Shown one piece after another: positions 29,237-53,886 of a stretch of DNA of 64,000 nucleotides. The DNA is taken from positions 2,294,001-2,358,000 of the forward strand of contig NZ_CP052766.1 in the NCBI RefSeq assembly GCF_002499975.2, read 5' to 3'. The stretch comes from Alteromonas pelagimontana. GTDB taxonomy: Bacteria; Pseudomonadota; Gammaproteobacteria; Enterobacterales; Alteromonadaceae. Each line of letters opens with the position of its first letter. The first letter of the stretch is position 1. A program made the translations under genes and the position numbers. The notes below the pieces were generated by a model. It was not told the origin of the DNA. It did no database searches and saw only the letters and a list, made by a program, of their open reading frames with translations.

Positions 29237-30418
29237 GTGATTCATCGTGATGTCATAGTGATTGGCGCGGGGGCTGCCGGTCTGTTCTGTGCGGCGCAAG
29301 CTGGTCAAAGAGGACGAAATGTTGAGGTGCTGGATCACGCCAAAAAAGTTGGTCGGAAAATTTTGATGTCTGGCGGCGGACGCTGCAACTTCACTAATAT
29401 GTATACCACCCCTGAAAACTTCCTTTGCAGCAATCCTCACTTTTGTAAATCTGCTTTAAGCCGCTATACCCAATGGGACTTTGTTGGCTTGGTGGCGCAA
29501 TACGGCATCGCTTATCACGAAAAAACCTTAGGTCAGCTATTTTGCGATGATTCCGCGACGGATATTGTGAATATGCTGCTTTCTGAATGTGAGAAAGCGC
29601 ATGTTAAAGTGTCTACACGATGTGAAATTCTAAACGTAGAAAAAAACGAGCAGGGCTTTGTGCTTCAGACGTCATTAGGTGATTACCGTTGTGAATCTTT
29701 GGTCATTGCCACCGGCGGGTTAAGTTTACCCAAACTTGGTGCGTCTGCGTTTGGTTATCGTCTGGCAGAGCAGTTTGGGTTAAAAGTGCTGCCCACTCGC
29801 GCAGGACTGGTGCCATTCACGCTACAAGATGCTGATAAAGCAACGTTGGCAGAATTAAGCGGAATTGCAGTAGATGTACAAGTCAGTTGTAACAGTTCGT
29901 CGTTCCGCGAAAGCATGTTGTTCACTCACCGCGGCTTGAGCGGCCCTGCCATGTTACAGATCTCATCTTTCTGGCAGCCGGGTGATGTTCTTAGTATTAA
30001 TGCGCAGCCGGAACAGACGATAGCAACAATACTGGAAATTGCTAAAGAAGAGACACCAGAAGCCCTACTTTCCACCGTACTAGGTAAACTCTATCCGAAA
30101 CGGTTTGTACAAACTTTCATAGCGCTTTATGAATGGAAAAATACGCCAGTAAAGCAGCTAAATGCCAAAGACATCGAGAAAATGGAAGCCAACTTTTCTA
30201 ATTGGCAAATAAAACCTAATGGCACAGAAGGCTACCGCACGGCAGAGGTAACGTTAGGCGGTGTTGATACCAATGAATTATCTTCGAAAACCATGATGGC
30301 CAAGAACGTAGATGGCTTGTTCTTCATCGGCGAAGTGGTGGATGTCACAGGCTGGCTAGGGGGCTTCAATTTCCAGTGGGCCTGGTCTTCTGGCTGGGCT
30401 GCTGGGCAATATGTGTAA
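29237..30418 (+). CDS. yhiN: YhiN/HI0933-family NAD(P)/FAD-dependent oxidoreductase; transposon attachment gene
   Basis: A 393-residue flavoprotein starting with GTG at 29237 (AGAGG six bases upstream). The dinucleotide motif VIVIGAGAAGLFCA is at residues 5-18, GGGRCNFTN follows, and GEVVDVTGWLGGFNFQWAW closes the FAD site; these are hallmarks of the HI0933/YhiN family, whose substrate is unknown. The last codons TAT GTG TAA coincide with the outermost bases of the Tn7-like element, so the Val codon and stop appear to be supplied by the transposon terminus. From memory, yhiN is one of the genes reported beside Tn7-like insertions; this could not be checked here. Confidence 0.93.
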   Translation: MIHRDVIVIGAGAAGLFCAAQAGQRGRNVEVLDHAKKVGRKILMSGGGRCNFTNMYTTPENFLCSNPHFCKSALSRYTQWDFVGLVAQYGIAYHEKTLGQLFCDDSATDIVNMLLSECEKAHVKVSTRCEILNVEKNEQGFVLQTSLGDYRCESLVIATGGLSLPKLGASAFGYRLAEQFGLKVLPTRAGLVPFTLQDADKATLAELSGIAVDVQVSCNSSSFRESMLFTHRGLSGPAMLQISSFWQPGDVLSINAQPEQTIATILEIAKEETPEALLSTVLGKLYPKRFVQTFIALYEWKNTPVKQLNAKDIEKMEANFSNWQIKPNGTEGYRTAEVTLGGVDTNELSSKTMMAKNVDGLFFIGEVVDVTGWLGGFNFQWAWSSGWAAGQYV

Positions 30419-30556
30419 TTTGATCTGAAGTAATTAAAACGAAGACAGAGGAAATTAGAGCGAAGACAATTTGCAGCCTGAATTGTAGAAAAACGACTTA
30501 ACCATATGATGATCAGTTCTTTTTTCTACAGATTCAAATTAGCTGAACGAAGACAG
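30412..30556 (+). repeat. yhiN-side transposon end with three TnsB-type sites
   Basis: Three similar sites lie in the same orientation: TAAAACGAAGACA (30435-30447), AGAGCGAAGACAATT (30457-30471) and CTGAACGAAGACAGTT (30543-30558). The outermost belongs to the 36-base terminal inverted repeat starting at 30412. Spacing of two close sites and one distant site is like the multi-site ends bound by TnsB in Tn7. An inverted repeat (TGTAGAAAAA at 30484-30493 with its complement at 30521-30530) lies between sites two and three. Confidence 0.82.
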
Positions 30557-30604
30557 TTAGGTTTGTAACGTCAATTAGGCCCGAATTCGTTGAGATACCC
30601 AGTA

Positions 30605-33600
30605 TTAAGAATCATATCTATTTCCCCAGCTTTTCCTTGCTACAGCATGATCTCTAAAATCAATAACGTTAGTTTCATATTCTGAGATATAGGGCTCTAT
30701 TCTTTCGCCTAGTCTTATTAATTCTTGGTTATTTCTATCACTCAATAAGTTCTCAATGTGCTGACAAACCTTAGCGAAAACAGCACTCACTCCAGCTTTC
30801 CCTAAATCATAAATGGCGTTTTCGATTAGTGGTTTTAAAGAATCGTCACCAGTAGCTTTGACTACTAAAGCGACAAATTCACTAAAAACAGACCCTTCAC
30901 TGATTTGGCTAGTTGCCCAAACTATCCCGCTATTCTTTCCATCATAAACTGGTAACCCGAATTCCTTTGAGACATTATCTAGCAAGTCCTTAATAGCAAG
31001 ACTACAGTCCAGTAGTGCTGGAGACATTATCCCGACTTCAGACAATTCCAAACTAACTCCCGTTGTAGTTAGCTCTTTTAAGTCTTCTATGTATGGCATA
31101 TCAGTTTTTAATTTAATTATACCTACCTCAGTGGCGTTTTCTAAGTAGGTAAATTGTGCAGATTTATATAGTTTGGGCGTGCCATCCAAAATTGGAGAAG
31201 GTAGTGCAGTAAGACTCTTTAAATTTCCATCAAGAATAAACGCCTTTAAAAATTTGGTTATTCGAAGATTTAATTTAAAAGGAGGGATTGAGTTACCTTC
31301 TATACTTTCAAAAAAAGATTTGGCTTTGACTTTATCTACAGTCTCTTTCAACGCATCAAAGCGACCAAAGTTATTTAAACTCTTCTCGTTAACAGTGTCA
31401 TTTAACAAGCTTATAAGTATGCTTTTATCTAAGCCAAGGGCATTTACTACGGCATTTATTTGTGAGTTTTCTGCACTGTCTTTGAAGGTGTTGATGTAAT
31501 CCCGAAAACTGTATCCTTCTACCAACTCGGCATCGCCGCGCTGAAAGTCATGCAAAAACAGTTTCGCATATTTTTGTTCTGTCTGGGTGAGTGATGCAAA
31601 CGATTTATGCAGCTCGTTAAGCGTTCTTTCGATGCTGGCTTGATCTTTGTGCTGATTCAGTTCTTTTAAATATTTATCAAAGCGACTATTCATATAATCG
31701 GCATCGATTTTACCGGTATCAATTTCGGTCAAGTAGCCACTGATATCGTAGGGCACCTCACGACCTCCGGTATTGCTGGTAATGTCAGCGTTGTCGGCTA
31801 ATTCTTTATAGCGCAGAGCAAGACCTAAGAACGTTTGTTCATCAACGGCCAGCGTTATTTTTCGATCACTATTTTCACCGCAGGTATGAGTAAGCTTATT
31901 CCAATGTAAGCCCTGTACCTTAGCGGCCTCTAAATGTTTGTTAAATACTTTAAATAAATCTGCAAATTTTGCGCAGGCCTCAACATCTTCTGGCAGTTTT
32001 TCAAAATTTGTCACACCGGCACTAATGAACAACTCGGTAATATCACCGAACAGTTCATTCATTGCTTCTAAGTTACTTTCTAGCCTATCAACAAATAACC
32101 CAATGGGTCTGTCGCCAGAGTATAGTTTTACCGCATCGTTAATATATTGCTCCATCGTATGCGGGTAACGATAGTAACGGATAACACCATGAGGCTTATC
32201 GGGGCCAAACAATCGATTGGTACGAGAGAAGGCTTGGATGATGTTTTGGTATTTAATTACCTTATCTAAATATAAGACATTCAGCCACTTGGAGTCAAAA
32301 CCGGTGAGCATTTGGTCTACAACAATCAATAAATCCAACTGTTTTGTAGGATCGGTATGAATACGCTCATAAGGTTTTTTGTGAGCAAGGCGTGCGGCTA
32401 GATCTTTCTTAAATGCTGCATGGCGGGCAAAATCAAAATCGTGGCCATAACGCGCATTATAGTCACGCATAATCTCATCCAAGCCATCACCTTTAAATGT
32501 TGGCCCTCGGTCGCCACTGCCGTCATTATCAATGTTAGGATCAAACAGTGCTGATACTTTTAAATCAGGCTTAGCAGCCTTTAGCAGACGGTAATAATCA
32601 ATGGCTTCAGCAATACTGTTAGTAGCCAAAATCGCATGAAACTTATTGCCTTGGCTTAGCACATCCCATTTGTGCAGAATATCTTCTACCACTTTGGCTT
32701 GGTGAGTCTCGCTTAGGTACTGACTTTTAGGTACGTAATCTTCAATACCTTTGTGGTATTTACCTGTAGCGTCTTTGTAGCCAGCCATAGGCACTTCATT
32801 CATAAAATAATTAAATTTTTTCTTTTTGGCAGGATTATCCATTGCTTCCGCTACAGATCCCGACTTAGCTTGCTCTAGGGCGACAGCCTGCCTTAAGTCA
32901 CCGTCCCTAAAAGTAGGCACTTTATAGGGATCAAAGCCGAGTACGTTACCATCGCGAATACCATCGGCTATGCTGTAGCGGTGCAACTCATTGCCAAATA
33001 CGGTACTGGTAGTATTGCCGTTTTTTTCATTTTCTTCTTGGATCGGCGTGCCAGTAAAACCAAAAAACAAGGCGCGGGGAAAGGTGCGTTTAATAATGAT
33101 CAGCATGTCGCCAAACGTTGAACGGTGCGCCTCGTCAATAATAAATACCAAGCGTTTAGCGCGGATTTTTTCAATATCTGCCGAGTTTGTTGCAGTGCCT
33201 TCATCATCCACTTCTTCAAAAATATTACTCATTTTTTGAATAGAGCTAACAATTAGAGTATCGGCTGGGGACGTGCTTTTTAGCTTAGTTACCAATACAT
33301 GAGTATTTTCGGTCGCTTGTACATCTTCACCATCGCCTGCAAAATTACGGTATTCCGCCAGCGACTGGGTGCCCAACTCGATGCGATCCATCAAAAAAAT
33401 GACTTTATCGGCATCTTTTGATTGGGCAATGAGCTGTGCTGATTTAAAGCTGGTCATGGTTTTGCCCGAACCTGTGGTATGCCAAACATATCCACCTAGC
33501 CTGTCTTTATTATTGGCACTGCCCAGTTGTTGCCAGTTGGTTTTGGCTACCTTATCCGATATCGCATTGGCGGCGTAATACTGATAACTGCGCATCACTT

Positions 33601-34384
33601 TAAGCACACCATCGGTATCATCGGCAACGGTGTAAAAGCCAATCAACTGGTGCGCCATGGGAATGGATAACAGTGTCGAGGCAATATCTTTCCAATGGTT
33701 CATGGGCTCGTTGTTAAAATCGGCCCAATTGAATTGGTAATCTGGGTTAAACTTGCCATCTAGCCCTGGGTTAGCAAAGTATTTGGCCTCATTAGGCTCC
33801 ATGGCGACAAACACTTGAATGAGTGAAAACAGCCCACTAAAAATACCTTCTTTGGAATACTTTTCGATTTGGTTAACCGCTTGGCTAACTGGCACGCCAC
33901 TGCGTTTAAGTTCAACATGAATGACCGGCATACCGTTAATCAGTAACAACACATCACCACGTCTGTCATTACGCAGTGGGCTGCCGCGTTCAAATTTCGG
34001 CTGCTGGACGATTTGGTAACGGCTTTGACCAGCAGCAATTTCTTGGCGATCATAGATTTTTAGGCTGACTTTTTTGCCAAGATGCAAGGCATCGGCGGGG
34101 TTATCGCGCTTAATGGCTACCGTTTTGCCGTTAATTAACCCATTGAGTTTAAGCGGTGTTTTTAGCTCTTTGATCTGCTCAATAATCTGCTGCATTTCCG
34201 TTGCCGTCAGCGGCACATCATTTAAGCGGTCTTGCTGGCGATTGTTTTCAAATAAAATGTTCGCCCAGTTTTGCAGTAAGTCCGCTTCGGTTTTGTTTTT
34301 GAGTACCTCAGGCTCCCATCCCTTATGAGTAAGCACCTCGATAAAGGCCTGCTCAAATTGTGCTTCGGTTTTAAACGTCGTCAT
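30605..34384 (-). CDS. hsdR: Type I restriction endonuclease subunit R
   Basis: A 1259-residue HsdR. The nuclease core is GDVLLLINGMPVIHVELK, with Asp144, Glu158 and Lys160 forming the PD-(D/E)xK site. The translocase motor follows with Walker A TTGSGKT (about residue 305), the DEAH box in FIIDEAHRST, GFTGTPI and the motif VI region IIQAFSRTNRLFG. It cuts DNA after translocation when the HsdM/HsdS sites are unmethylated. It is last in the mrr-hsdM-hsdS-hsdR cluster, 14 bases after hsdS. The frame is intact, so the system may be functional. Confidence 0.96.
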   Translation of the reverse strand: MTTFKTEAQFEQAFIEVLTHKGWEPEVLKNKTEADLLQNWANILFENNRQQDRLNDVPLTATEMQQIIEQIKELKTPLKLNGLINGKTVAIKRDNPADALHLGKKVSLKIYDRQEIAAGQSRYQIVQQPKFERGSPLRNDRRGDVLLLINGMPVIHVELKRSGVPVSQAVNQIEKYSKEGIFSGLFSLIQVFVAMEPNEAKYFANPGLDGKFNPDYQFNWADFNNEPMNHWKDIASTLLSIPMAHQLIGFYTVADDTDGVLKVMRSYQYYAANAISDKVAKTNWQQLGSANNKDRLGGYVWHTTGSGKTMTSFKSAQLIAQSKDADKVIFLMDRIELGTQSLAEYRNFAGDGEDVQATENTHVLVTKLKSTSPADTLIVSSIQKMSNIFEEVDDEGTATNSADIEKIRAKRLVFIIDEAHRSTFGDMLIIIKRTFPRALFFGFTGTPIQEENEKNGNTTSTVFGNELHRYSIADGIRDGNVLGFDPYKVPTFRDGDLRQAVALEQAKSGSVAEAMDNPAKKKKFNYFMNEVPMAGYKDATGKYHKGIEDYVPKSQYLSETHQAKVVEDILHKWDVLSQGNKFHAILATNSIAEAIDYYRLLKAAKPDLKVSALFDPNIDNDGSGDRGPTFKGDGLDEIMRDYNARYGHDFDFARHAAFKKDLAARLAHKKPYERIHTDPTKQLDLLIVVDQMLTGFDSKWLNVLYLDKVIKYQNIIQAFSRTNRLFGPDKPHGVIRYYRYPHTMEQYINDAVKLYSGDRPIGLFVDRLESNLEAMNELFGDITELFISAGVTNFEKLPEDVEACAKFADLFKVFNKHLEAAKVQGLHWNKLTHTCGENSDRKITLAVDEQTFLGLALRYKELADNADITSNTGGREVPYDISGYLTEIDTGKIDADYMNSRFDKYLKELNQHKDQASIERTLNELHKSFASLTQTEQKYAKLFLHDFQRGDAELVEGYSFRDYINTFKDSAENSQINAVVNALGLDKSILISLLNDTVNEKSLNNFGRFDALKETVDKVKAKSFFESIEGNSIPPFKLNLRITKFLKAFILDGNLKSLTALPSPILDGTPKLYKSAQFTYLENATEVGIIKLKTDMPYIEDLKELTTTGVSLELSEVGIMSPALLDCSLAIKDLLDNVSKEFGLPVYDGKNSGIVWATSQISEGSVFSEFVALVVKATGDDSLKPLIENAIYDLGKAGVSAVFAKVCQHIENLLSDRNNQELIRLGERIEPYISEYETNVIDFRDHAVARKSWGNRYDS

Positions 34385-34398: not shown

Positions 34399-35631
34399 CT
34401 AAACAAACATTTTGCTCAAGCAGGCTTGCTTGATGTTATTAAGTTTGGTGATTTGTTGTTGGTGTTGATTTATTAGAGCATCAAGTTTTTGGAAGTAGCT
34501 GCCGATTTTTTCTTGCTCCAATAAACTGGGCATATATGTTTTTATATCCATAACTTTCGTTTTTGAGATATTGTAACGAGACACACCTTGAGCTAGAAAT
34601 ATCACTTGCTTTCTAAAGGAGCTTGCTCGAAGCATATAAGCTAAGTAAACGCTATCAATCTTTTGCTTTGGTCTATATCCGAAACAAAAGCTATTTAGAT
34701 AAACGTTTTTAGCTTCGCCCATCCAAATAGAAGACATTCCAACCTCTTCAGGCGTTTCAGAAGAGGTTGTAAAAAAAACATCTCCTTTTACTACTTCGTT
34801 TTGACTTTCATCAATCTCTACTGGTTCAACCAAACTTTCATTTGAAATTGCGTTCGCAAATACATTCATATACGTTACAAATCTGGCTTGTCCATGTCCA
34901 AAATCATGTTTAGTTTTACCAGCCAACCCTGTAAATGTTTCACCAAACTCACCTAGCGTCCTCTCCTCCCACTCCCCACTAAACCCTTTAAAGCGGATTT
35001 CTGGGATGGTTTCGCCTTGTTTGGGGAACATCTTTTCCAGCATGGCTTTTTTGATGTTGCTAAGCTTTTCATGCTTTTGTTGGTGTTGATTGATTAGGCT
35101 ATCGAGTTTTTGGAAGTGATTTGTTATCGCATTTTGTTCTGCCACATCTGGGATTTTGATAGATCTACTTTTCCAGTCAGAAACATCAAAAACTAATTTT
35201 TCAATATCGACCCCATAAGAACTAATGAAAAAAAGCTTGTGTATTTCAGGTCTTTTTGAAATCACAGTCCAAAATTTGGCAGTTATTTCATCACTATCTG
35301 TTACGACAAGATACTCATTAGATACAACAGCATTGTCTAAACTCTCTGGTACAATCCCATTGGCACCATGAACAACTTGCCGCTTTGAAATTAAGTAATC
35401 ACCAGATTTAATCCCAAAATAGTTTTTTACTAATATATCTTTTCCTTTCAGTGAAGCTCTAGCCACAACACCTTCGTTGCGACGCTTCACGGTCACCAAT
35501 TGATATAATTCGTTATCGAGCAGCTCAACTGGGCGTCTTGTCTCAGCTAAAATACTTCCAATTCCTTTATCTTGCCAATCACCACTAAAGTTCTCGAAGC
35601 GAATGTCTGGTGCCTTCGTCTGAATGGTCAT
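34399..35631 (-). CDS. hsdS: Type I restriction specificity subunit S
   Basis: A 410-residue HsdS with two target-recognition domains, each followed by a helical spacer. The internal duplication is obvious: PDIRFENFSGDW near the N-terminus matches PEIRFKGFSGEW near residue 215, and KLDSLINQHQQKHEKLSNIK matches KLDALINQHQQQITKLNNIK at the C-terminus. The two TRDs are different, so the target is a bipartite asymmetric site. The duplicated spacer is also repeated at DNA level. It lies one base downstream of hsdM. Confidence 0.95.
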   Translation of the reverse strand: MTIQTKAPDIRFENFSGDWQDKGIGSILAETRRPVELLDNELYQLVTVKRRNEGVVARASLKGKDILVKNYFGIKSGDYLISKRQVVHGANGIVPESLDNAVVSNEYLVVTDSDEITAKFWTVISKRPEIHKLFFISSYGVDIEKLVFDVSDWKSRSIKIPDVAEQNAITNHFQKLDSLINQHQQKHEKLSNIKKAMLEKMFPKQGETIPEIRFKGFSGEWEERTLGEFGETFTGLAGKTKHDFGHGQARFVTYMNVFANAISNESLVEPVEIDESQNEVVKGDVFFTTSSETPEEVGMSSIWMGEAKNVYLNSFCFGYRPKQKIDSVYLAYMLRASSFRKQVIFLAQGVSRYNISKTKVMDIKTYMPSLLEQEKIGSYFQKLDALINQHQQQITKLNNIKQACLSKMFV

Positions 35632-35632
35632 C

Positions 35633-38242
35633 TTAAGCGCCCTTTAATAAGCTAGTAAGTTCAGCTAAGCCTTGCAGATCAAACTCATTACCAGTGAGTT
35701 CTCCCATCATGTCGGCCAGCTCGATCTCAGTGGTTTTAATCTCATTCGCCACTTGCGAATAGGTGACGGCGTATTTATCGGCAAGAGCTTGTACTTGGCT
35801 GGTCAACTGAGTAATCACGGCATTTGGCATGGCAGCAAGCTCTTGGCTTAACGGTGTGATCCATTTTAGGTGCAGCAATTCATTGACTTGATCATCGGTT
35901 AAGCCTTCGATGGTGGTTTTGGTTTTTAAGTGCAACGCGATTTGTGCTTCTTTGACCGCTTTTTTCAGAGCTTTTTCTTCATCGATGAGTTTATTGGCCT
36001 TAATGATTTTTGCTTTATAACTTTCCTCTGGCTCAGGGCTGTCGGCTGAGAACTTAGTTTTGGTCTCTTTTTGCTCTTTTAGGAAAGTTTTCGCCGCCTT
36101 GGCGACTTCGGCATTGGCAAAGCCGTCTTTGCTTTCTTTTACCGTGTCTTGCTCTTTGTCTTCTTCGCTTAGTGATTCGAGTATTTCTTCCAGCGAGCTG
36201 GCGATTTCGACAAGGCGGTTTTCTTGTTTTGCCAGTGCCGCTAGGTCATCTCTCAAGTAGGTTTGTTGTACTAAATCAAATGGCATGATGTGGCCTTTCC
36301 AGCCATCTTGTACTTCGGTGTCTTTGCCCTTAACTTTTTTAACCACGATATTGGGGTCAACTTGCTTAGTGGCGGCGAAGCCTTCGGTTTGCATCACTTC
36401 CAAATCGGTACTGATAACTTGCCATTGGTTGTTTAGAAATTGATAGGCTTGGTATTTGTCGATGAGGGCAACGCTGCTTAAGCGATTAAATAGTTCAGCG
36501 CTTAATTCAGGCTCTTGCTGGTTACGGTTAACATCTTGCCAGCCTTGAATAAGCGTATTGTTTAAATAGTCATCAAAACCAGCAAAAGCTTGGTTATAAG
36601 CACTGATAAACTCGATGACTTGTGAGTGCTGGGTAATGGTTGCATTAACGTCTTGTTTAGCAATGGCTAATTCACTGTAGGCGGCAGACTTGGCCACAAA
36701 CAGCGCATCATGCAACTGCGGGAATGATTGCCAATATTGGTGTAACTGCGCAATTTCGCTATTGGGGATGCCACCTAGCATAGTGGCGTGTAAATCCCAG
36801 CTTTCAGCGGCAGGTGACGAGTCTACATAACGCGGAATATTTAAGTTGTAGCCATTGTCGCGCAGGGTTTGCTTACTCACCACTTGCGAGAATTTTTCGA
36901 TGCTGTCGCGGTTAATGACCGCATCAACAACACGCTTGATGTCACTGGCTTGCAGTTTATTGTTTTTGCCTTCTTTAACAAAGTGCTTGGAGGCATCCAC
37001 AATCAGTACATCGGTATTTTGCCTTTTTTGTTTGAGCACCAAAATGACGGTAGGAATACCTGTGCCAAAAAAGATGTTAGCCGGTAAGCCGATAATGGCA
37101 TCGATGTGGTTTTGCTCAATTAATTGCTTGCGAATTTCACCTTCTTCACCGCCACGGAACAACACCCCATGAGGCAAGACAATGGTCATAATGCCATCGG
37201 GTTTTAGGTGGTAAAGGTCGTGTAGCAAAAAGGCAAAATCGGCTTTGGTTTTAGGCGCTAAGCCAAAACGCGAATAACGTGGGTCGCTGTCTTTAAAACT
37301 TGGGTCCCAAGGTTGCGAGTAAGGCGGGTTAGACACGACCGCATCCACATACAGCGCATGATAAGTACCTTGCGGATCGTTTTCATCAAAGTAGGGCCAA
37401 TCGTCTTCTAAGGTGTCACCGTTACGGGTTTTGATGTTGCTGGCTTTAATGCCGCGCATGATCAGGTTCATACGGGTCAAGTTATAGGTATTGGCTTTCA
37501 GCTCTTGGGCATAATAGGTAATGCTGTCTTTGCTTTTGGCGTATTTTTCGACCGCTTCACCAATATTGATCAGTAACGAACCTGAGCCAGACGTTGGGTC
37601 GTAAATCTCGATGGTGTCTTTGTGTTTTAATTCGTGGGCGATGATGTGCGACATCAGTACCGAGACTTCATGCGGCGTGTAGAACTCACCGGCTTTTTTA
37701 CCGGCATTGGCGGCAAATTTTTCAATCAGGTATTCATAGATGTAACCCAGTACGTCATAGCCTTGCTTACCGTTCATTGGGATACTTTTGATTAAATGCA
37801 GTAGGTCACTAATGGCTTTTGTACGCTTACCTGCGCTTTCACCCAGTTTGCTAAGACCCGTTTCGAGTGTGGTGAAAATACCTTCAAACAATTTTTTGTA
37901 GGTAGGCGAAATCAAACGGCTAAAGGCGGATAGCGCATCGCGCACGTTAGACTCGTCAAAGTCGAATGCAGGATCAACCCAAGTAGCAAACAAATTATCG
38001 TAAGCGATGAAATAACCTAGATTGTCTTGAATGTACTTGACCGTGTCCGCGTCTTCTTCATTGAGGGCTTTAATGTCTTCAGGTGTCATGCCCTCTTTGG
38101 TGACAAACTGAACTAACTGGTCGCTCAGGTACTTGTAAAAAATGAAACCTAAGATGTAATCTTTGTATTCGTTAGCTTCGATTTTTGAGCGCATCTGGTT
38201 GGCTGATTCCCAGATTTTTGTGGCCAGTTGTTGTTTGTTCAT
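35633..38242 (-). CDS. hsdM: Type I DNA methyltransferase subunit M, long form
   Basis: An 869-residue HsdM. The N-terminal helical HsdM domain (residues 1-150) is followed by the adenine methyltransferase core with the AdoMet motif DPTSGSGS at 215-222 and the catalytic NPPY at 305-308, plus GEFYTPHEVS. It is about 350 residues longer than the classical form near 500-520; the extra C-terminal part contains charged coiled-coil-like helices (for example KEQDTVKESKDGFANAEVAK) and conserved-looking Gln/Leu-rich segments. It methylates adenine in the HsdS target. It is 48 bases after mrr on the same strand. Confidence 0.95.
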   Translation of the reverse strand: MNKQQLATKIWESANQMRSKIEANEYKDYILGFIFYKYLSDQLVQFVTKEGMTPEDIKALNEEDADTVKYIQDNLGYFIAYDNLFATWVDPAFDFDESNVRDALSAFSRLISPTYKKLFEGIFTTLETGLSKLGESAGKRTKAISDLLHLIKSIPMNGKQGYDVLGYIYEYLIEKFAANAGKKAGEFYTPHEVSVLMSHIIAHELKHKDTIEIYDPTSGSGSLLINIGEAVEKYAKSKDSITYYAQELKANTYNLTRMNLIMRGIKASNIKTRNGDTLEDDWPYFDENDPQGTYHALYVDAVVSNPPYSQPWDPSFKDSDPRYSRFGLAPKTKADFAFLLHDLYHLKPDGIMTIVLPHGVLFRGGEEGEIRKQLIEQNHIDAIIGLPANIFFGTGIPTVILVLKQKRQNTDVLIVDASKHFVKEGKNNKLQASDIKRVVDAVINRDSIEKFSQVVSKQTLRDNGYNLNIPRYVDSSPAAESWDLHATMLGGIPNSEIAQLHQYWQSFPQLHDALFVAKSAAYSELAIAKQDVNATITQHSQVIEFISAYNQAFAGFDDYLNNTLIQGWQDVNRNQQEPELSAELFNRLSSVALIDKYQAYQFLNNQWQVISTDLEVMQTEGFAATKQVDPNIVVKKVKGKDTEVQDGWKGHIMPFDLVQQTYLRDDLAALAKQENRLVEIASSLEEILESLSEEDKEQDTVKESKDGFANAEVAKAAKTFLKEQKETKTKFSADSPEPEESYKAKIIKANKLIDEEKALKKAVKEAQIALHLKTKTTIEGLTDDQVNELLHLKWITPLSQELAAMPNAVITQLTSQVQALADKYAVTYSQVANEIKTTEIELADMMGELTGNEFDLQGLAELTSLLKGA

Positions 38243-45141: not shown

Positions 45142-46693
45142 AACACTGTTTAGCTGGCTAAGCCGCACGCACATCCGCTACGGTGTGGGGCCCGTGGCTC
45201 GCACGTATCACGCATTGCTAGGCAAAACCAAGATGCGGCTGCACCCGTATCTTCCGCAGGGGCTTAGGGATTTTTCAGCGCTCACCGAAAAAAGTACGAG
45301 CACATTACTCTCACAGCATACGCTGTATCCGCTGTTTCGCTTTTTTCATGCCGATGAGCAAGGGCGTCTTAAACATACGCTACTGACCGGTGAGGGCTCT
45401 TCGACCCATGCGGCAAACATTCCTCATGCCCGACTACATATCCCGTTACATCACAAATACCGTCCACTGTGCGCCCGTGAACAGCGTCAGAGGCTGGGTT
45501 TTGCCTATTTTGATATCAGGCACCAACTCCCCGGCCTTATCGCCTGTGAGCGCCACCAGATCACTTTGACCGGTGTGCTGTGTGGAGATGGAGCGCTAGA
45601 TAGTGCCATTGCCCTACCACAAGAGAAATCCCCGGTATCGTCTGTGTCAGCAGTCACAACAGCCTTCAGTCAATTCTGTGTCGCGGTTAGCGAGCAGTGC
45701 AGTACCTCCACCGCCTTGATGCAGCCCTACCAGATGGATAACTATCGCCACCTCCTTGACAGAAAAGGCTATCTGACTCGCCACCACCAACTGCGCTTAC
45801 AGCAAGTAAAGCAGGCCCTAGGGGCGCGTTATGAGACGTTGCAACTCGATAGTGGCACCGAATCTCTGCGTGATTATGCGTTTTTAGGGCCGCTGCTGCG
45901 CCAGCGGACAGGGTATCCAGCGCATCCCTTGAAACACCTTCTTCTCGGGTTTTGGCTCTTTGATGGTGCGTCAACAGGATATCTAAAGACTATTACACCG
46001 GTTGAGCAACAGTCGCTGGCGCTGGCGGATACCGCCAGTCTGGAGGCTAAAACGCTGGCGTTACTCAAACAACAGGTGAGTTTTGCCACGATTGCGAAAC
46101 GCTTGGGTAAATCACGGTGTTATGTACGGCGTATCGCTCAGCTCAACCAGGTAAGCTATCGGCACAATGCCCTGATGTTCGATGCCCGCGTGCGGCATCG
46201 TGTGATCATTCAAGCCTTGTTAGGGCGTCATCGACGTACCATCGCCAACAACCTCGGCGTGGGAATGGGTTATGTGGAGCAAGTGATTGCAAATACCCGG
46301 GGGCTTCGTCAATGGCGACAAGTCCTCACCCACAAGCATAAACGCGTAAAGGCGATCTATGTGATTAAGCAGGCGCGAATAGCCCATCCTGATTGGCTGC
46401 AAAAGGATATCAAGCAACAGGAAAGCCAGGCGTTTTTCTACCTGTATCACCATGATCGGGAAGCGCTCAAACAGTGTCTGCCACCCCGTCGAGCGCCGAC
46501 TCCGCCGCCTTTTGATTGGGCCAAAGAAGATATGCGGCTGATCGCAGCGCTCAAGCAGCTTACTGCGCCGTACCCGCAGTCGCTAAGTGCCGCAGGCAGA
46601 GCGATAAGCGACAACGGGCACTTACGGAAAAACCTGACCAAGTTGCCGCGTACCCATGCGCAACTTGTTGCATATCAAATTATTGATAAATAA
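45113..46693 (+). CDS. tnsD: TnsD/TniQ-like target-site selector with altered zinc motif
   Basis: A 526-residue protein from the ATG at 45113 (AAGG six bases upstream). The N-terminal TniQ domain begins SLQPYETLFSWLSRTHIRYG. In the zinc motif the residue that should be the first cysteine is Arg117 (YRPLC, codon CGT at 45461-45463), while Cys120, Cys145 and His148 remain. The C-terminal half carries at least two helix-turn-helix segments (SFATIAKRLGKSRCYVRRIA and RRTIANNLGVGMGYVEQVIA), as expected of a sequence-specific DNA binder of TnsD size. It is the likely reader of the yhiN attachment site. Confidence 0.88.
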   Translation: MKTVSLQPYETLFSWLSRTHIRYGVGPVARTYHALLGKTKMRLHPYLPQGLRDFSALTEKSTSTLLSQHTLYPLFRFFHADEQGRLKHTLLTGEGSSTHAANIPHARLHIPLHHKYRPLCAREQRQRLGFAYFDIRHQLPGLIACERHQITLTGVLCGDGALDSAIALPQEKSPVSSVSAVTTAFSQFCVAVSEQCSTSTALMQPYQMDNYRHLLDRKGYLTRHHQLRLQQVKQALGARYETLQLDSGTESLRDYAFLGPLLRQRTGYPAHPLKHLLLGFWLFDGASTGYLKTITPVEQQSLALADTASLEAKTLALLKQQVSFATIAKRLGKSRCYVRRIAQLNQVSYRHNALMFDARVRHRVIIQALLGRHRRTIANNLGVGMGYVEQVIANTRGLRQWRQVLTHKHKRVKAIYVIKQARIAHPDWLQKDIKQQESQAFFYLYHHDREALKQCLPPRRAPTPPPFDWAKEDMRLIAALKQLTAPYPQSLSAAGRAISDNGHLRKNLTKLPRTHAQLVAYQIIDK

Positions 46694-47046
46694 TAGTTTT
46701 GTGGTCAAACCAGTCACTCTCTGATGCCGGAATCAATGACTTAGCATTTTTTTTAAAACTGTTACTGTAAAAACCCAAAAAAGGGTCCTACAGATATAAA
46801 TAAGGTAATACGAAAGAGATAACGCCCCTTAAATTGATAAGCAATTGGTGTGATAGGGCTTTTATTGGCTAATGAACAGAATGGATTTTTATCCATTTTG
46901 AGTGAGATAGGTAAGTGAAAACACCACATTGTGTTAAGCAGGCGACCGACTGGAACACGGCCAAGCGAAGCGTGGGAAAATAAGAATGGGTTGAAACCAA
47001 TAAACCGCCCCCAAACCCAATTTTTTTGAGGGGGGACTACCTCAGG
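46694..47046. other. Gene-free stretch downstream of tnsD
   Basis: No convincing coding frame, array or RNA gene was found. A weak hairpin ATGGAT-TTTT-ATCCAT (46881-46896) followed by TT could terminate the tns operon. A run of five C (47008-47012) could pair with six G (47030-47035) just before the next gene. Confidence 0.5.
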
Positions 47047-47388
47047 ATGAAAAGCATGACACGTTGGACAACCACGCGTATTGATAACCACAGCCTCGCC
47101 CGTTTTATCGGTCCCCATCCCTATGTGGTGCTGTCGTGTCACGCTGCTATTCCCGCGCCTCATTTATTTCTATTTTTACGCCTGATGCGTGAGCTCAATA
47201 CACTCGGCGCAGACGATTGTGAATTTCACGTCTTTTACATTGATGTTGATGAGAGAACCGGCATTCCTACACCACAGGTGGAAATTATAGGCGATGCCGA
47301 GAGATCGTTTGAGACTGTGGCTGATAGGTATGAAAGGCTTTATCAACTGACAATAAAACAAAAGCCAAGCTTAAAGCTTGGCTTTTAG
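47047..47388 (+). CDS. Unknown small protein, transposon cargo
   Basis: About 113 residues from ATG 47047 (or 110 from ATG 47056); an in-frame TTG at 47026 is less likely. A G-run at 47030-47035 could serve as ribosome site. The protein reads as one compact globular domain with alternating hydrophobic strands (YVVLSCHAA, FHVFYIDVDE) and an amphipathic C-terminal helix. No family was recognised. The last codons and stop lie within a strong palindrome shared with the convergent gene. Confidence 0.55.
   Translation: MKSMTRWTTTRIDNHSLARFIGPHPYVVLSCHAAIPAPHLFLFLRLMRELNTLGADDCEFHVFYIDVDERTGIPTPQVEIIGDAERSFETVADRYERLYQLTIKQKPSLKLGF
47360..47386. terminator. Strong bidirectional terminator palindrome
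   Basis: AAAAGCCAAGCTT and AAGCTTGGCTTTT are perfect complements around a single base, forming a stem of about eleven pairs with T-rich arms on both strands. It overlaps the end of the 47047 gene and lies eleven bases from the end of the convergent small gene. Confidence 0.85.
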
Positions 47389-47649: not shown

Positions 47650-48927
47650 CTATTCAGGCTGAATGTATAACCGTTTACGAATTAAAACTAGGTAGGGTTC
47701 AATAATGTTTAGAAAATCAGATACTTTCTCTCCGTTAAACAACAACCCATCTTGATCACGATAAATATTTACAACCCACTTAACGCGTTCCTGTTTAAAA
47801 GCTGATGTCAGAGGGATACTTAATAAAGAATGTGCAATCCCAGTGCTTTCCGTTAAATAGTATTGTCTAAGGTTTCTTTCAACGCTACCTGACCAATTTA
47901 GTGTATTTTCACGTTTGGAGTAGTGATGATAAATATCTCCGATATCCTTCAGGTATGAGTAGCTTCTTTCAGCTACTGCAATTGGCGCTCCTAACAAGTT
48001 TTGATGTTTAGGTTTCTCTTGATTTCTGACCAAAGTGAATGGGAAAGCAATTGGCTTTCTATCTGCATCAGGTATTGGCTCCGGAGTATCTGTAGCCGTT
48101 GTTAATTCGTTATCTTCTAAAATGACAATACCACTATAATCAGAAAAAGGCCCTCCGCTAAATTTCGACGCTTTTTGATGCCACCCTTCAGCATCTTCTG
48201 CTTTCATTTCGTCGTAATAAAATACTTTCATGATGTTGGCACGATACACAATTTTGTGACTGCGACGATTTCGGGCATCCCATTTATTGACTAGATCAAT
48301 GAGTGTGACAAGCAAAAAACGCAAATCTTCCTTTCCGTTTTCTTTCTTTTCGAAAAATGCGGCATTGGTCGTTGAGTATGCTTGTAGAAGCTTGTTTTTC
48401 ACTAATTCTCTAGATTCCGGCGTTTCTTCATTGACCTGAGGAATATCAATGTCTATGTCTTCCAATTTCCCTGAAGGCGGTAGGGTTTCATTGTGAACAT
48501 CTATATCTTGCTCATCAAGCCATGAACATACTTCGAGAAGCATACTTTCCGTCATTGCCATCTGCGCTTCAAATATCTCTAACTGATTCGAAGCCTGATC
48601 GTAATTGCGAGCAAAGTATTCCAAGAAATCAGCAGGTGGAGAGGTAATAATTGATTTGAGAGTATTTTCATCTTTAGCTTCAATAGCGCTGGAACGCGCA
48701 CTGAAAAGGGAAAGCAAAACTAAGAATATTACTATTGCTAACCAGAAATACCAATTTGGCGAACGCTCCCACGAGATGGGGGTAATATCTCTGATTTCAC
48801 TAGAGAAAACTGATACGTATCCACCGTAAGCCAGTGCTGCTGCCCATAACAAAACATTACATGGGGAGCTAACGATAAAGCGCTGCCATAAGGAATTAGG
48901 GCTGTAATTACGATTATAAAAACTCAT
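47650..48927 (-). CDS. Membrane protein with two N-terminal helices and C-terminal GAF-like domain
   Basis: A 425-residue protein. Transmembrane helices are predicted by eye at about 22-42 (NVLLWAAALAYGGYVSVF) and 59-77 (WYFWLAIVIFLVLLSLF). A helical, acidic middle section to about residue 230 is followed by a domain that reads like GAF: VYRANIMKVFYYDE, the loop GIVILEDN, APIAVAERSYSYLKDIG, HSLLSIPLTS and KWVVNIYRDQDGLL. The fold call is tentative. It would be an inner-membrane sensor with a cytoplasmic ligand-binding domain. It follows the 172-residue membrane protein gene on the same strand after 144 bases. No effector domain is recognised. Confidence 0.65.
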   Translation of the reverse strand: MSFYNRNYSPNSLWQRFIVSSPCNVLLWAAALAYGGYVSVFSSEIRDITPISWERSPNWYFWLAIVIFLVLLSLFSARSSAIEAKDENTLKSIITSPPADFLEYFARNYDQASNQLEIFEAQMAMTESMLLEVCSWLDEQDIDVHNETLPPSGKLEDIDIDIPQVNEETPESRELVKNKLLQAYSTTNAAFFEKKENGKEDLRFLLVTLIDLVNKWDARNRRSHKIVYRANIMKVFYYDEMKAEDAEGWHQKASKFSGGPFSDYSGIVILEDNELTTATDTPEPIPDADRKPIAFPFTLVRNQEKPKHQNLLGAPIAVAERSYSYLKDIGDIYHHYSKRENTLNWSGSVERNLRQYYLTESTGIAHSLLSIPLTSAFKQERVKWVVNIYRDQDGLLFNGEKVSDFLNIIEPYLVLIRKRLYIQPE

Positions 48928-49071: not shown

Positions 49072-49590
49072 TTATTGTTGAGGTGTTTGTGAAGTATTTA
49101 GCGATTCTTCAAGTTGTTCTACCTGGGCTGATAATGTAGAAATTTGCTCTCCTAGTTCTGCCAGTTTTTGGCGGCTATCTAACTCATGAGCTTTTAAATT
49201 TTTCTGTTGAGTTTCGATACCGGTTGATACCGTGTCTTGCTGTGTATCATTCTCACTTTTTTGCAATACACCATCAATCACAATCCACCATAGAAAGATT
49301 ACCGCGACTAATTGCAATAGAAAGTCAAGTAGACTCCACCCCCCTGTAAGCTCGGGATTAACTGAGCGCTTTAATGCTGCTGTGGAGATAGCGATAATCG
49401 CGGACCCTATGAAAAGGTATGTGAAATTTTCTGACATCAACTTCAAAGGCTCATCCGCAAGCCAAAATACTAAACCTAAAAACACTCCAGCAAAGCCTGC
49501 CGAATCGAGCACAGCACTTTTAACGAGCTGCATAAATTTGTATACACCGTACCAAGAAGACTTAGGAATGGTGGGGTTTTGAGAAGTCAT
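49072..49590 (-). CDS. Three-helix membrane protein with C-terminal coiled coil
   Basis: A 172-residue protein whose ATG has AAGGA six bases upstream. Three hydrophobic helices are visible (FAGVFLGLVFWLA, TYLFIGSAIIAISTAAL, and LLQLVAVIFLWWIVIDGVL), then a polar Gln/Glu-rich tail with heptad-like leucines (LAELGEQISTLSAQVEQLEESL). No family was recognised. Its place directly upstream of the GAF-like membrane protein suggests a two-component membrane module; coiled coil tail and small size would suit oligomerisation or partner binding. Confidence 0.65.
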   Translation of the reverse strand: MTSQNPTIPKSSWYGVYKFMQLVKSAVLDSAGFAGVFLGLVFWLADEPLKLMSENFTYLFIGSAIIAISTAALKRSVNPELTGGWSLLDFLLQLVAVIFLWWIVIDGVLQKSENDTQQDTVSTGIETQQKNLKAHELDSRQKLAELGEQISTLSAQVEQLEESLNTSQTPQQ

Positions 49591-50068
49591 ACTGCATCCT
49601 TTTATTACTCTAATAAAAACAGGTGGTTATTCTTATTTTTTCAATCCAGATGTCAAGGTAAAGCGGTAATAATTCTTTACTCAAATTTCAGTATCAACAT
49701 CCTAAACAGATACAAAGTTGCAGTATCCAAGAAAGTAATGACGAACAGGTACTAAGTAGGTCGTTAGTGGCAATTTTTTCACGACAATACGGTTGTAAAC
49801 CTATTAAACATAATCCCTTCTTATGCGCCATTAGGCCCAAAATCGCGGTTGACGGTTTTTTTCCCCTGAACGCGCCATTTATCGCACTTTTCGCAAATCC
49901 CCACCGACCACCCTCTGGCGCTGCCCCAAAAAACGCAATGGATGCCTCAGCGCTGGGATGGCGCATTCGTGATAAGCTCCAAGTCTAAGGGGGAGCACAC
50001 TCGCTTAAACCGTGAAGCGCTCCTTACCCCAGCGGGCCTATGCCAAACGATAATGGAGCTTGAGTAGC
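49591..50068. other. Gene-poor region before the primase-helicase
   Basis: No trustworthy gene is seen in these 478 bases. A leftward frame at 49694-49966 has no ribosome site and reads as an Ala/Gly/Lys-rich sequence (GGRWGFAKSAINGAFRGKK) of the sort found in over-annotated intergenic repeats. The stretch 49770-50040 is richer in GC than the AT-rich DNA to its left, so a cassette boundary may lie near 49750. Confidence 0.45.
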
Positions 50069-52447
50069 ATGACAATCCCGGGAGCCCAGGCGCGGCTGGC
50101 GCAAATCGTCGAAGCGCTGGCGCGATTGGAAGAACAAAAAACGGCGTTGCTTAATGAACGTAGTGCGCTTTTGCAACAAAGCATAGCGCATCAAGCACAG
50201 TACTTCAGTCAGTCTGAGACGCCCGAGGCCAAGGTCGACCTGTTTAAGCAATACTTTCGCGGACGCGAAGATGTTTACCCATTCCGCTGGGAGTCTAAGC
50301 AAGGGAAAGCCGGATACAGCCCTTCCTGTGCCAATGAATGGCAAGCTGGGATCTGCAACAAACCCAAAACGGCATGTTCAGAATGTGCCCACCAAGCCTT
50401 CCATCGCTTTGATGACCGTGCCATTAATGCCCATCTTCGAGGGCAACGCACGATTGGGATCTACCCGTTAACGGCGCAAAATGAATGTTACCTGTTAGCG
50501 TTTGACTTCGATAAAACGGACTGGTTTGCGGCAATATCTGCACTGCGAAACGTGTGTGAGTCACTGTCTATTGGCTACTTAGTTGAGCGTTCCCGCAGTG
50601 GACAAGGCGGTCATTTGTGGCTCTTTTTTGAAAAAGCGATAGAGGCAAAATCCGCACGCCAATTGGGCACAGCGCTGCTCAATCTGACCATGGACACATA
50701 TCCGGCTCTTAACTTTGACTGCTTTGACCGCATGTTTCCCAACCAAGACGCCTTACCCAGCGGCGGGATGGGGAACCTCATTGCATTACCGTTACAAAAA
50801 CAGCCTCGCTTGTCGGGGAATGCCTGCTTTATTGATGCTGACGGAGGCGTTGTCGAAGATCAATGGCAAGCACTGGCGGCGACGAGCAAGCTATCACCTG
50901 ACACTATACGGCAACTACTCGAGCGTCTCGCCGATTATGTAGACGTGGAACCGCAAGTCGCCGAGTTAAAACCCTGGGAAAAATCGACGACCCTTAATAC
51001 GCCCAAAATTGACGACTGCCCCGCGACAATCGACATCGTTGTGGCTGACAAGCTGTATATTGCTATTGCGGTTTTACCCAACAAACTGGTCGCAACGTTA
51101 AAGAAGTTAGCGGTGTTTGCCAATCCTGAATTTTTTAAACGCCAGGCGATGCGATTTTCAACGATTGGCGTACCTCGCTATCTGTGTGCGGCGCACATTG
51201 ATTCGGGCTATCTGCACCTGCCCAGAGGACTAAAAGGACAAGTTGAAGCGTTACTGGAACAACAGGCTTGTACTATCCGATATCAGAATAAACGCTATGC
51301 TGGTCAGCGACTCCCGGCCCTGCGTTTTGAGGGCACGCTTCGCAGCCAGCAAGCGAAAGCGCTAAAAGCCTTACTGGAGAATGAACATGGACTGGTCATT
51401 GCGAATACGGGGTTTGGTAAGACCGTTGTTGCACTGGCATTAATCGCCAAACGCGCAGTCAATACATTGGTATTAGTGCACAATAAGGCGCTGGCGGAAC
51501 AATGGATTGAGCGATGCAAGATATTCCTCAAAGACGCTGAGATGGGCTCCCTCTTAGGCGGAAAGAATAAATTAAACGGACGAATAGACGTCGCGACGTA
51601 TCAAAGCCTGATCAGTAGAAATGGCATTGATATTCATGACAAAGTAGATAGCTACGGGCAAATTATTGTCGATGAATGCCATCACATTCCGGCCTCAAAC
51701 TATGAAACGTTGTTAAAGAACGTCGCGCCTCAATTCCTGGTTGGTTTTACCGCGACGCCCAAAAGACAAGATGGGTTGGAAAAGCTAATGTATTTTCAAC
51801 TTGGGGCGGTGTTATTTGAGTCTAAACCAGAGTCGGTAAAATTCAGTCAAACGGCCTATGGCTGTGATACCCAAATCGCCTTTCCTCCGTCTTGGGTGGA
51901 TGGTTCGGAGCCGGTAAAAATCACCCAGATGTATCAATACCTGCAAGACAATGCGTCTCAAAATCAGCTCATCACGTGCAGCATTGCCCAGGCAATAGAA
52001 GCCAAGCATCAATGTCTGGTGCTCAGTGAACGTAAAGAACATATTGCAATACTCAGCGAGCAATTAAATACACAAGGTATCAATACTATTGAGCTGCATG
52101 GTGGCGTGAGTACTAAGATCCGTAAACAGCGGATTGAACAGATTCAGAAGGGATTACCTGAAAGGACGGTCATCATTGCGACGGGTAAATATGTGGGGGA
52201 AGGCTTTGACTTGCCTTATCTGGATACCTTGTTTTTGACCCTCCCAATTTCATGGAAAGGGATTGTGGCCCAGTACGCTGGCCGTATTCAGCGTCACTAC
52301 CCGAATAAAACAGAAGTAACGGTGCACGATTATATTGATGATTTTCCCATGCTACAGAGAATGTGGAAAAAGCGTGCTAATGGATATAAGGCCGTTGGGT
52401 ATAGTGTCAAAAGGATCGGTAGCGGCAAAACTGACAAGCTTCTTTGA
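50069..52447 (+). CDS. TOTE-type archaeo-eukaryotic primase fused to superfamily 2 helicase
   Basis: A 792-residue protein starting at ATG 50069 (GGAG ten bases upstream). An N-terminal coiled coil (5-40) precedes a primase domain with a Cys4 cluster (Cys87, 96, 103, 106), the metal-binding DFD at 146-148 (YLLAFDFDKTDW) and SRSGQGGH at 175-182. From about residue 430 there is an SF2 helicase with Walker A NTGFGKT, DECH box (IIVDECHH), FTATPKRQDG, and motif VI QYAGRIQR near 733. This pairing is what family databases call a TOTE conflict system primase-helicase, proposed to defend against or compete with other elements. A nuclease partner was not recognised nearby. Confidence 0.88.
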   Translation: MTIPGAQARLAQIVEALARLEEQKTALLNERSALLQQSIAHQAQYFSQSETPEAKVDLFKQYFRGREDVYPFRWESKQGKAGYSPSCANEWQAGICNKPKTACSECAHQAFHRFDDRAINAHLRGQRTIGIYPLTAQNECYLLAFDFDKTDWFAAISALRNVCESLSIGYLVERSRSGQGGHLWLFFEKAIEAKSARQLGTALLNLTMDTYPALNFDCFDRMFPNQDALPSGGMGNLIALPLQKQPRLSGNACFIDADGGVVEDQWQALAATSKLSPDTIRQLLERLADYVDVEPQVAELKPWEKSTTLNTPKIDDCPATIDIVVADKLYIAIAVLPNKLVATLKKLAVFANPEFFKRQAMRFSTIGVPRYLCAAHIDSGYLHLPRGLKGQVEALLEQQACTIRYQNKRYAGQRLPALRFEGTLRSQQAKALKALLENEHGLVIANTGFGKTVVALALIAKRAVNTLVLVHNKALAEQWIERCKIFLKDAEMGSLLGGKNKLNGRIDVATYQSLISRNGIDIHDKVDSYGQIIVDECHHIPASNYETLLKNVAPQFLVGFTATPKRQDGLEKLMYFQLGAVLFESKPESVKFSQTAYGCDTQIAFPPSWVDGSEPVKITQMYQYLQDNASQNQLITCSIAQAIEAKHQCLVLSERKEHIAILSEQLNTQGINTIELHGGVSTKIRKQRIEQIQKGLPERTVIIATGKYVGEGFDLPYLDTLFLTLPISWKGIVAQYAGRIQRHYPNKTEVTVHDYIDDFPMLQRMWKKRANGYKAVGYSVKRIGSGKTDKLL

Positions 52448-52747: not shown

Positions 52748-52760
52748 CGGTATGTTCTTA

Positions 52761-53045
52761 CTATCGCATGCGCTCGACCGTCAGGCCGTGCGTTTGGGCA
52801 AAGGCAAGAACTTTGCTTTCGGTCGCGACCACATCATGCTGATAGCGACAGCAGAAAGCGATCCAATGTTGTTCGGATTTGAAGACAGCTCGCACATCAT
52901 TCAAGCCATGATCAATGCCATATTGGGTGGTATCGATGGGCACAGCCTCATGGGCGTGAAAGTGTTCCCGCGCAAATTGGGTCAGCAGATCGCGAGGCTC
53001 CGTGTCTGCATCCACCTTCCATACATAATTGCAATATACAGTCAT
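52761..53045 (-). CDS. Unknown 94-residue protein, second of a small cassette
   Basis: The ATG at 53045 has AAGGAG five bases upstream, the best ribosome site of the cassette. The protein is rich in His, Asp and aromatic residues (FAREHFHAHEAVPIDTTQYG, WIAFCCRYQHDVVATES) and looks globular and soluble; no family was recognised. A rightward overlapping frame at 52602-53084 starts with TTG without a ribosome site and is judged a shadow. Confidence 0.65.
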   Translation of the reverse strand: MTVYCNYVWKVDADTEPRDLLTQFAREHFHAHEAVPIDTTQYGIDHGLNDVRAVFKSEQHWIAFCCRYQHDVVATESKVLAFAQTHGLTVERMR

Positions 53046-53055
53046 GGTGTCTCCT

Positions 53056-53379
53056 TTATGCTTGGTATAGGGAAATGTCGCTGAGCCGGATACGCTGCAC
53101 GGTCACGTGTGCCGCACGCCAATTTGCCAGCTCGCTGTCCAATAACACCCGTTGCAATGAGCGCACGCAGCCCTCTTTGAGTGGATGCAGTATTGAGATC
53201 TCTCCATTTGAGGCGGTCCAATGATAGCTACCTTCTTCCGTGTGGATAGGTACAGCACCTTGTCTTGCGCAGTGAACGCTCATCGAATTGTCATTGAAGA
53301 GCGTGACGAGACAAACCTGGGTAGCGGCGTTGTCAGCGGTTAGTGTGTAAAGTAGCCAGCCATCGGGGTAAGTGAGCAT
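53056..53379 (-). CDS. Unknown 107-residue protein, first of a small cassette
   Basis: Likely first gene of three leftward small genes, ten bases before the 94-residue gene. The protein reads as mostly beta structure (WLLYTLTADNAATQVCLVTL, SMSVHCARQGAVPIHTEEGS, YHWTASNGEISILH). No signal peptide or membrane helix is seen and no family is recognised. No clear ribosome site precedes the start. Confidence 0.58.
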   Translation of the reverse strand: MLTYPDGWLLYTLTADNAATQVCLVTLFNDNSMSVHCARQGAVPIHTEEGSYHWTASNGEISILHPLKEGCVRSLQRVLLDSELANWRAAHVTVQRIRLSDISLYQA

Positions 53380-53613
53380 GTCATGCTATCGTGTCAGTGG
53401 TATCTCTCTTTACGCTAGTATAAGGTAAGGGTTAGATCAATAGTCTCTTATAAACAATGAGTTAGTATCACTTTGATACTAACTCCCGTGCGAATCGTTG
53501 TTAGTAGCTATGTGCTTGTAATTACGCTAGAACTTAACAAGGATTCAGATAACCGGCTGGTCGATACGCCAATTTTAGGGCGATGACTGACGCATAATAA
53601 AAGGAGAGAGAAA

Positions 53614-53739
53614 GTGGAACCACAAGAGCATGATGATGAAGCATTCGCACTTTTGGCATTTATTGCGATAGGTGAGCAAACTCTCGCAGAAAATTCTCAA
53701 ACGTTTGAAGATGTAGAAGCCTTTTTGCTAGATCTTTAA
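53614..53739 (+). CDS. 41-residue acidic protein, antitoxin-like
   Basis: A GTG start at 53614 lies seven bases after AAGGAG, a strong ribosome site. The 41-residue product (MEPQEHDDEAFALLAF...FEDVEAFLLDL) is acidic, with pI clearly low, and helical. Its pattern of a short helix, Gly-Glu turn and an F-x-D-V-E-x-F-L tail resembles small ParD/RelB-like antitoxin helices, but the resemblance is loose and no toxin gene lies beside it. It sits 45 bases from the first right-end TnsB site. Confidence 0.55.
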   Translation: MEPQEHDDEAFALLAFIAIGEQTLAENSQTFEDVEAFLLDL

Positions 53740-53783
53740 ACGACTATGCTTAAGATGTAGGCACATCAGTGGGCCTCTTAACA

Positions 53784-53886
53784 GTCTTCGTTTTAATTTG
53801 ATATTTATAGAAATCGAATGGGTTTTATTCAGAGGTCTATAAGACTACTTTGTCTTCGTTTTAGTTAAGCCGGTTCAAATTGTGCA
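53784..53886 (-). repeat. Distal transposon end with two TnsB-type sites
   Basis: GTCTTCGTTTTAATT (53784-53798) and TGTCTTCGTTTTAGTTAA (53851-53868) are the reverse complements of the sites at the yhiN-side end. The outer one belongs to the 36-base terminal repeat ending at 53886 (the tip reads TGCACAATTTGA inward). A third, degenerate site may lie between them but was not convincing. Confidence 0.82.

Follow-up and report, generated by a model that had tools for sequence, protein, structure and literature searches.

A complete Tn7-like transposon at the 3′ end of yhiN in Alteromonas pelagimontana, whose TnsB clade appears to share a 4-bp target duplication

Limits and transposition genes of the element

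The window considered here is a stretch of 64,000 nucleotides of Alteromonas pelagimontana (contig NZ_CP052766.1, positions 2,294,001 to 2,358,000), part of a complete 4.31 Mb genome labelled G000 (throughout, G plus a number denotes a genome and L plus a number a locus), and it holds a complete heteromeric (TnsA + TnsB) Tn7-like transposon at the 3′ end of yhiN. The element extends from window position 30421 to 53877 (23,457 bp), with AATT on either flank. We consider it very probable that this is a complete Tn7-like element using the yhiN 3′ end, that its TnsB clade duplicates 4 bp, and that its cargo is one of defence genes (type I restriction, Mrr and a TOTE primase-helicase). The 4-bp duplication, which appears to be shared across a TnsB clade, is the new and surprising part, and did not figure in an earlier reading of this DNA made from its letters only (the sequence-only reading).

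The element sits between yhiN (29237-30418, plus strand; aminoacetone oxidase family FAD-binding enzyme, TIGR00275 E 3e-126) and an epimerase-like gene (54108-55220), and yhiN is uninterrupted, its TAA stop codon (30416-30418) lying outside the element. The gapless inverted match of 27/36 between the outer 36 bases, from which the sequence-only reading had set limits of 30412 and 53886, is exact as reported, but those limits reach 9 host bases too far at each side. The corrected limits follow from the left ends of G040, G005 and G041, which are nearly identical and begin 0, 1 and 2 bases past the yhiN stop, respectively, and from the comparison of G041 with an empty site in G050. The 36-base match had thus run into the host flank, partly because AATT is its own reverse complement. 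Placed from these relatives, the element begins with TGATCTG (30421) and finishes with GGTTCA (53877), and flank comparison identifies the AATT at 30417-30420 and at 53878-53881 as the two copies of the 4-bp target duplication. Comparison with the ends of relatives likewise defines the left terminal 26 nt (TGATCTGAAGTAATTAAAACGAAGAC; 30421-30446, plus strand) and the right terminal 26 nt (reading inward TGAACCGGCTTAACTAAAACGAAGAC; 53852-53877, minus strand). The outer 27 bases of the corrected ends match in inverted orientation at 21/27, compared with a mean best match of 15.3 and a maximum of 18 in 200 first-order Markov resamples drawn from the 2 kb surrounding the right end, and with 18 for the best rival match elsewhere in the window. 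A search for inward-pointing sites recovered putative TnsB sites at both ends, as had been claimed: a tandem pair (30427-30447 and 30448-30468) and a third site (30545-30558) on the plus strand at the left, and an inner (53784-53798) and an outer site (53852-53866, within the right terminal 26 nt) on the minus strand at the right, with starts 68 bp apart.

The tnsABC-tniQ-tnsD set was also read correctly, all five open frames being present on the plus strand, with TnsA and TnsB matching solved Tn7 proteins. These are tnsA (39735-40559; PF08722 E 7.3e-9, Tn7 TnsA 1f1z E 6.4e-12), tnsB (40543-42756; Tn7 TnsB 7pik E 5.1e-45), tnsC (42680-44218; an AAA+ regulator with AAA_22 and TniB matches, whose start codon is uncertain, 42728 being used in searches), tniQ (44215-45141; 308 amino acids) and tnsD (45107-46693; 528 amino acids with TniQ and TnsD domains, PF15978 E 2.3e-18), the latter being the putative selector of the yhiN target. 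TnsB is divergent, matching the Pfam rve model at only E 0.0012; from the alignment and the Tn7 numbering, we take D319, D409 and E444 to be its candidate catalytic residues. In TnsA, the residue two before the catalytic lysine of Tn7 aligns to a proline.

Attachment at yhiN

Insertions at yhiN with both ends present and in the same orientation comprised five autonomous elements, the window's included, and three derivatives devoid of tns genes, and each of these eight paired elements has its left end toward yhiN. The earlier proposal that yhiN is the attachment gene and that the element measures about 23.5 kb is borne out by these four other autonomous relatives and three derivatives. Scanning genome contigs with TnsB returned a single locus, in Bowmanella sp. 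JS7-9, at 90% identity and also at yhiN, where the element carries a cargo different from that of the window. TnsB searches of 98 and of 394 genomes (the latter restricted to E <= 1e-50) otherwise yielded about 32% identity or less, except for G167 (46%), again at yhiN. Plasmid matches (800 records) all stayed below 60% identity, with 23.7-27.0% among the 20 matches listed, and a scan of viral contigs with TnsB revealed no close relative.

Searches with the left end itself pointed to the same gene. Left-end DNA matched 5 of the 59 genomes of the genus (the window's included), always directly after yhiN, and a pattern of two CGAAGAC motifs 13-14 bases apart occurred in 25 of 345 family genomes, at one locus each. 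According to their flanks, ten of these 25 loci lie directly after yhiN, while the other 15 look like chance. The ten include G000, G032, G463 (the Bowmanella element again, judged by position and sequence) and two further autonomous elements in G571 (TnsB 50%) and G455 (TnsB 35%); the remaining ones have a left end and no pairable right end. As side observations, TAGACAAA-type left ends lie directly after yhiN in G280 (L179) and G207 (L181), so this site type occurs at yhiN too, and in G207 neither a Tns match nor a right end was found in the 60 kb read. Read by eye, after the yhiN stop in G034 (L095) and G045 (L096) stands the 11-base TGATCTGAAGT, identical to the left tip, which may be the scar of a lost element; G049 (L099) differs there. 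Judged by eye, the right end of the Bowmanella element (L031, approximately 17070-17330) abuts a convergent open frame that seems to run into the transposon tip, which would supply its last codons and stop.

Two of the derivatives could be compared with uninserted DNA. An exact empty site for G041 exists in its sister species G050, reading CAATATGCCTGATGTGTGAAGC, whereas G041 reads ...CCTGATG, the element TGATCTG...GATTCA, and then GATGTGTGAAGC. For G040, the empty site in G018 reads GTGTAGTTTG.

The flanking 4-bp repeats

Ten elements with both ends could be compared, at yhiN (G000, G098, G040, G041, G032, G167, G571 and G455) or at gcvP (G145 and G213; gcvP identified by NCBIfam for G145 and by a 98% match for G213). 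Nine of the ten are flanked by flush 4-bp direct repeats (AATT, AGGG, GATG, CTGA, TTAA, TTAA, TTAG, TGGT and TTGA). Relatives without an element at gcvP exist as well, such as G226, reading TAATTTTGGTTAATTTAGCG. The gcvP elements (G145, L160/L159; G213, L163/L162) belong to a sister branch, lie at the gcvP 3′ end and have both TAGACAAA sites and 4-bp repeats. Approximately 0.7 kb past the right end of the G145 element there is another gcvP 3′ fragment.

That the repeats reflect coincidence or a target-site preference, the element being placed by something besides its own TnsB, is hardly credible. The sites are indeed similar, most of them at one gene, and two elements share TTAA, but shuffling the right flanks among elements gave a mean of 1.1 and a maximum of 7 repeats, with none of 100,000 shuffles reaching nine, and two of the nine repeats are located at another gene, gcvP.

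The layout of the ends is also shared. If each end of the ten paired elements is taken as the 26 nt reaching as far as its first GAAGAC or TAGAC site, 19 of the 20 ends start with TG (the exception being the right end of G032, with TA), and the right-end site pair is 62-63 bases apart in nine of the ten, the inner site being degenerate in G032. Related tnsB elements with different end repeats had been named beforehand as grounds for giving up a complete element; as the relatives share their end layout, the claim is not refuted on this ground.

An improbable alternative is a standard Tn7-like element that duplicates 5 bp, its left end placed one base further in (GATCTG) so that a 5-bp repeat is misread as 4 bp. 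In G041, G032, G167, G145 and G213, the 4-bp repeat is followed by a base identical to the one with which the left end begins; taken by themselves, these five would also fit an exact 5-bp repeat with an asymmetric left end, and the empty site of G041 permits 4 to 6 bp. This alternative fails, however, at the fifth base in G000, G098, G571 and G455, all of them flush at 4 bp, and fails in G040 too. Moreover, it requires unlike termini, yet the paired ends that start with TG do so at the same place. When each end was allowed to shift by as much as 6 bases, no 4-bp model did better than the flush one (9/10), and the best 5-bp model fitted 5/10; duplication of 5 bp with ends shifted within this range was therefore rejected.

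Two elements of another branch, treated alike, yielded clean 5-bp repeats. These are an element of E. coli EC21Z-083 that lies between yhiN and yhiM, with TGT...ACA ends and ATTGC/ATTGC, and a G039 element at yhiN, with TGTG ends and AAAAG/AAAAG. A TnsB tree with 29 rows places the five autonomous elements at yhiN in one clade (100/100), which joins the sister branch of G145, G213, G400 and G046 at 99/98, whereas the E. coli element (represented by the open C-terminal piece of its TnsB only), G039 and G058 group elsewhere (100/100). Two distant lineages therefore use yhiN, one with 5 bp (two cases read) and the other with 4 bp.

Several observations, including the five base identities above, weigh against a 4-bp duplication by an element with these limits. 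The flush repeat in G040 is only 3 bp (TAG). In G013, a single left end and a single right end were found, and their flanks differ (TTAA and ACAG). Since the left end is of the type seen in G455 and the right end of that seen in the window, we read them as belonging to two elements and excluded the locus; counted as one element, it would lower the tally to 9/11. Altogether, 13 loci lacking a paired right end were dropped before the count (G005, G013, G056, G654, G500, G531, G130, G493, G400, G046, G187, G207 and G280), for reasons that include the end of the contig (G005), the unlike flanks (G013) and contigs too short to seek a right end (G500 and G280). Among their left ends, those of G531, G130 and G493 start with TA and those of G187 and G280 with neither TG nor TA, so that with the right end of G032 these five show TG not to be universal. 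Of the six control loci tried, two could be read clearly; in G058 the repeat was ambiguous, judged by eye to be either 6 or 7 bp, and the motif search located no right end in G023, G016 or G011. Finally, the comparison with empty-site strains that had been proposed succeeded for the derivative in G041 and not for the window's own locus, for which no empty site was found among the 59 genomes of the genus: six matched, one of them being the window itself; of the remaining five, four matched in or near the epimerase-like gene and one weakly. An uninserted window locus would join GTGTAATT to GTGCAGTG with a single AATT.

Elements without tns genes

The three derivatives differ in size and content. 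Of its 6,581 bp, the G041 element (L084) has 4.1 kb, including the TOTE gene, in common with the right part of the window element (97%) and a further 47 bp in common at the left end; what lies between is different cargo. The G040 element (L065, L066) measures 9,060 bp, and the only long open frame of the smallest, in G032 (L087; 1,698 bp), is an Abi_2-like gene. Their flush repeats are 4 bp in G041 and G032, and 3 bp in G040. No match to the window Tns proteins was found between the ends of any of the three, nor any TnsB match at E <= 0.001 in their genomes. Movement in trans would be the simplest reading of these apparent satellites, the alternative being that tns genes were lost after insertion.

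The TniQ-TnsD target module

Comparison of the window and Bowmanella elements revealed an abrupt change within tniQ. While identity is 90-93% for TnsA, TnsB and TnsC and 83% for residues 1-160 of TniQ, it drops to 42% in TniQ past residue 160 and to 46% in TnsD. The C half of Bowmanella TniQ is instead closer to that of G571 (67%, vs 42% to the window element), and its N half is closer to the window element (83%, vs 54% to G571). The N half of TniQ is thus related together with TnsABC and the C half together with TnsD. A diverged Bowmanella TnsD pointing to a different target was considered and rejected, as that element sits at yhiN as well. We infer that the TniQ C half and TnsD were swapped as a unit between elements whose attachment gene stayed unchanged, and that both probably act together at yhiN; their joint exchange suggests partners for one site, and not two separate pathways.

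With moderate confidence, we extend this picture to the whole TnsB clade, which would insert at yhiN or gcvP with a 4-bp stagger, support tns-less satellites down to 1.7 kb (with one abortive-infection-like gene) that have the same ends and yhiN site, and swap the TniQ C half and TnsD as one unit.

Cargo of the window element

Left of tnsA, on the minus strand, a protein scan identified HsdR (type I restriction; 30605-34384), the type I specificity subunit HsdS (34399-35631), the type I methyltransferase HsdM (35633-38242) and an Mrr-type restriction enzyme (38291-39232). Past tnsD follow a small gene of unknown function (47026-47388, plus strand; a 73% match in G040 and broken matches in G013), open frames for cargo proteins of unknown function of 425 (47650-48927) and 172 amino acids (49072-49590), both on the minus strand, and a TOTE-type archaeo-eukaryotic primase plus helicase (50060-52447, plus strand; PF22548 E 3.6e-91, 97% match in the G041 element). 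Beside the right end lie two small minus-strand genes of unknown function (94 and 107 amino acids; 52761-53379), 93-98% identical in G040 and G041; they are near-identical in three elements of otherwise differing cargo, as if part of the end. For the unknown cargo proteins no Pfam match above the curated cut-off was found, and any PADLOC match was weak at best. Outside the element, the window holds a thiamine pyrophosphate (TPP) riboswitch (RF00059, 74.6 bits; 8961-9076, minus strand).

Discussion

A 5-bp duplication is stated as general for Tn7 and all its relatives (PMC11406308). The window element has TnsA + TnsB, TnsC with TniQ and TnsD, inward site arrays, TG...CA termini and one orientation beside an attachment gene, and departs from the class in its duplication of 4 bp, found in nine of ten pairs; by descent and gene content we place it as a variant that is still Tn7-like, in which TnsD would direct transposition. 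With Tn7 it has in common the heteromeric transposase, TnsC, TnsD, inward site arrays and insertion just past a conserved gene, but its TnsB is distant, its target is yhiN and not glmS, its duplication is 4 bp instead of 5 bp (PMC11406308), and no tnsE was recognised among its proteins scanned. Nor was a Cas effector, as in CRISPR-associated transposons, found among the proteins scanned, no search for a CRISPR array having been made.

yhiN is already known as an attachment gene from Tn6230, reported to insert between yhiN and yhiM in E. coli (PMC10121019), and a Tn7-like element next to yhiN is described in Vibrio cidicii (PMC12671221). By its place, the EC21Z-083 element is probably Tn6230 (PMC10121019). 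Both it and the window element have TnsA, TnsB, TnsC, TnsD, attachment at the yhiN 3′ end and TG...CA ends, but the E. coli TnsB (its C-terminal piece) falls in the distant branch with G039 and G058, its duplication is 5 bp (ATTGC, with TGT ends) and not 4 bp, and it is inserted 13 bp before the native yhiN stop, whereas the window element lies after the stop. Tandem tniQ-tnsD loci have been surveyed in Tn7-like elements (PMC10293859), which, like ours, encode a short TniQ followed in tandem by a long TnsD downstream of tnsC; what differs here is the apparent joint exchange of the TniQ C half and TnsD between two yhiN elements. In the open-licence PubMed Central literature we found neither a 4-bp duplication in Tn7-like elements, which may be described elsewhere, nor a Tn7-like element at gcvP; in the passages concerned of PMC10201428, PMC5955447 and PMC12719977, 4 bp refers to other things.

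In the mechanism that we propose, TnsD and the C-terminal half of TniQ would recognise the conserved 3′ coding end of yhiN and load TnsC there. TnsA and TnsB would then cut the element free, and TnsB would join its ends 0-2 bp beyond the yhiN stop with the left end toward yhiN. In this element and its TnsB clade, the target strands would be joined with a 4-bp stagger, so that the duplication left behind measures 4 bp, against 5 bp in Tn7.

Its genes and ends look intact, and the element may thus still be mobile. A dead remnant fixed at yhiN and carried vertically is unlikely: the left end does occur only once in the window genome, its own empty site was not found, and scar-like and end-only remnants are present at yhiN in relatives, but all five tns frames are open and of sizes like those of relatives, both ends and repeats are exact, and the TnsB with 90% identity occurs in another species with different cargo.

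The geometry of the strand-transfer complex is mirrored in the length of the stagger. The 4-bp clade would offer natural pairs for asking which TnsB features set the stagger. As yhiN is used by two distant lineages that differ in how many bases they duplicate and in where they insert, the recognition of the target is set apart from the joining step. Finally, known ends expose tns-less apparent satellites with defence genes that surveys finding ends from tnsB (PMC8649781) would miss.

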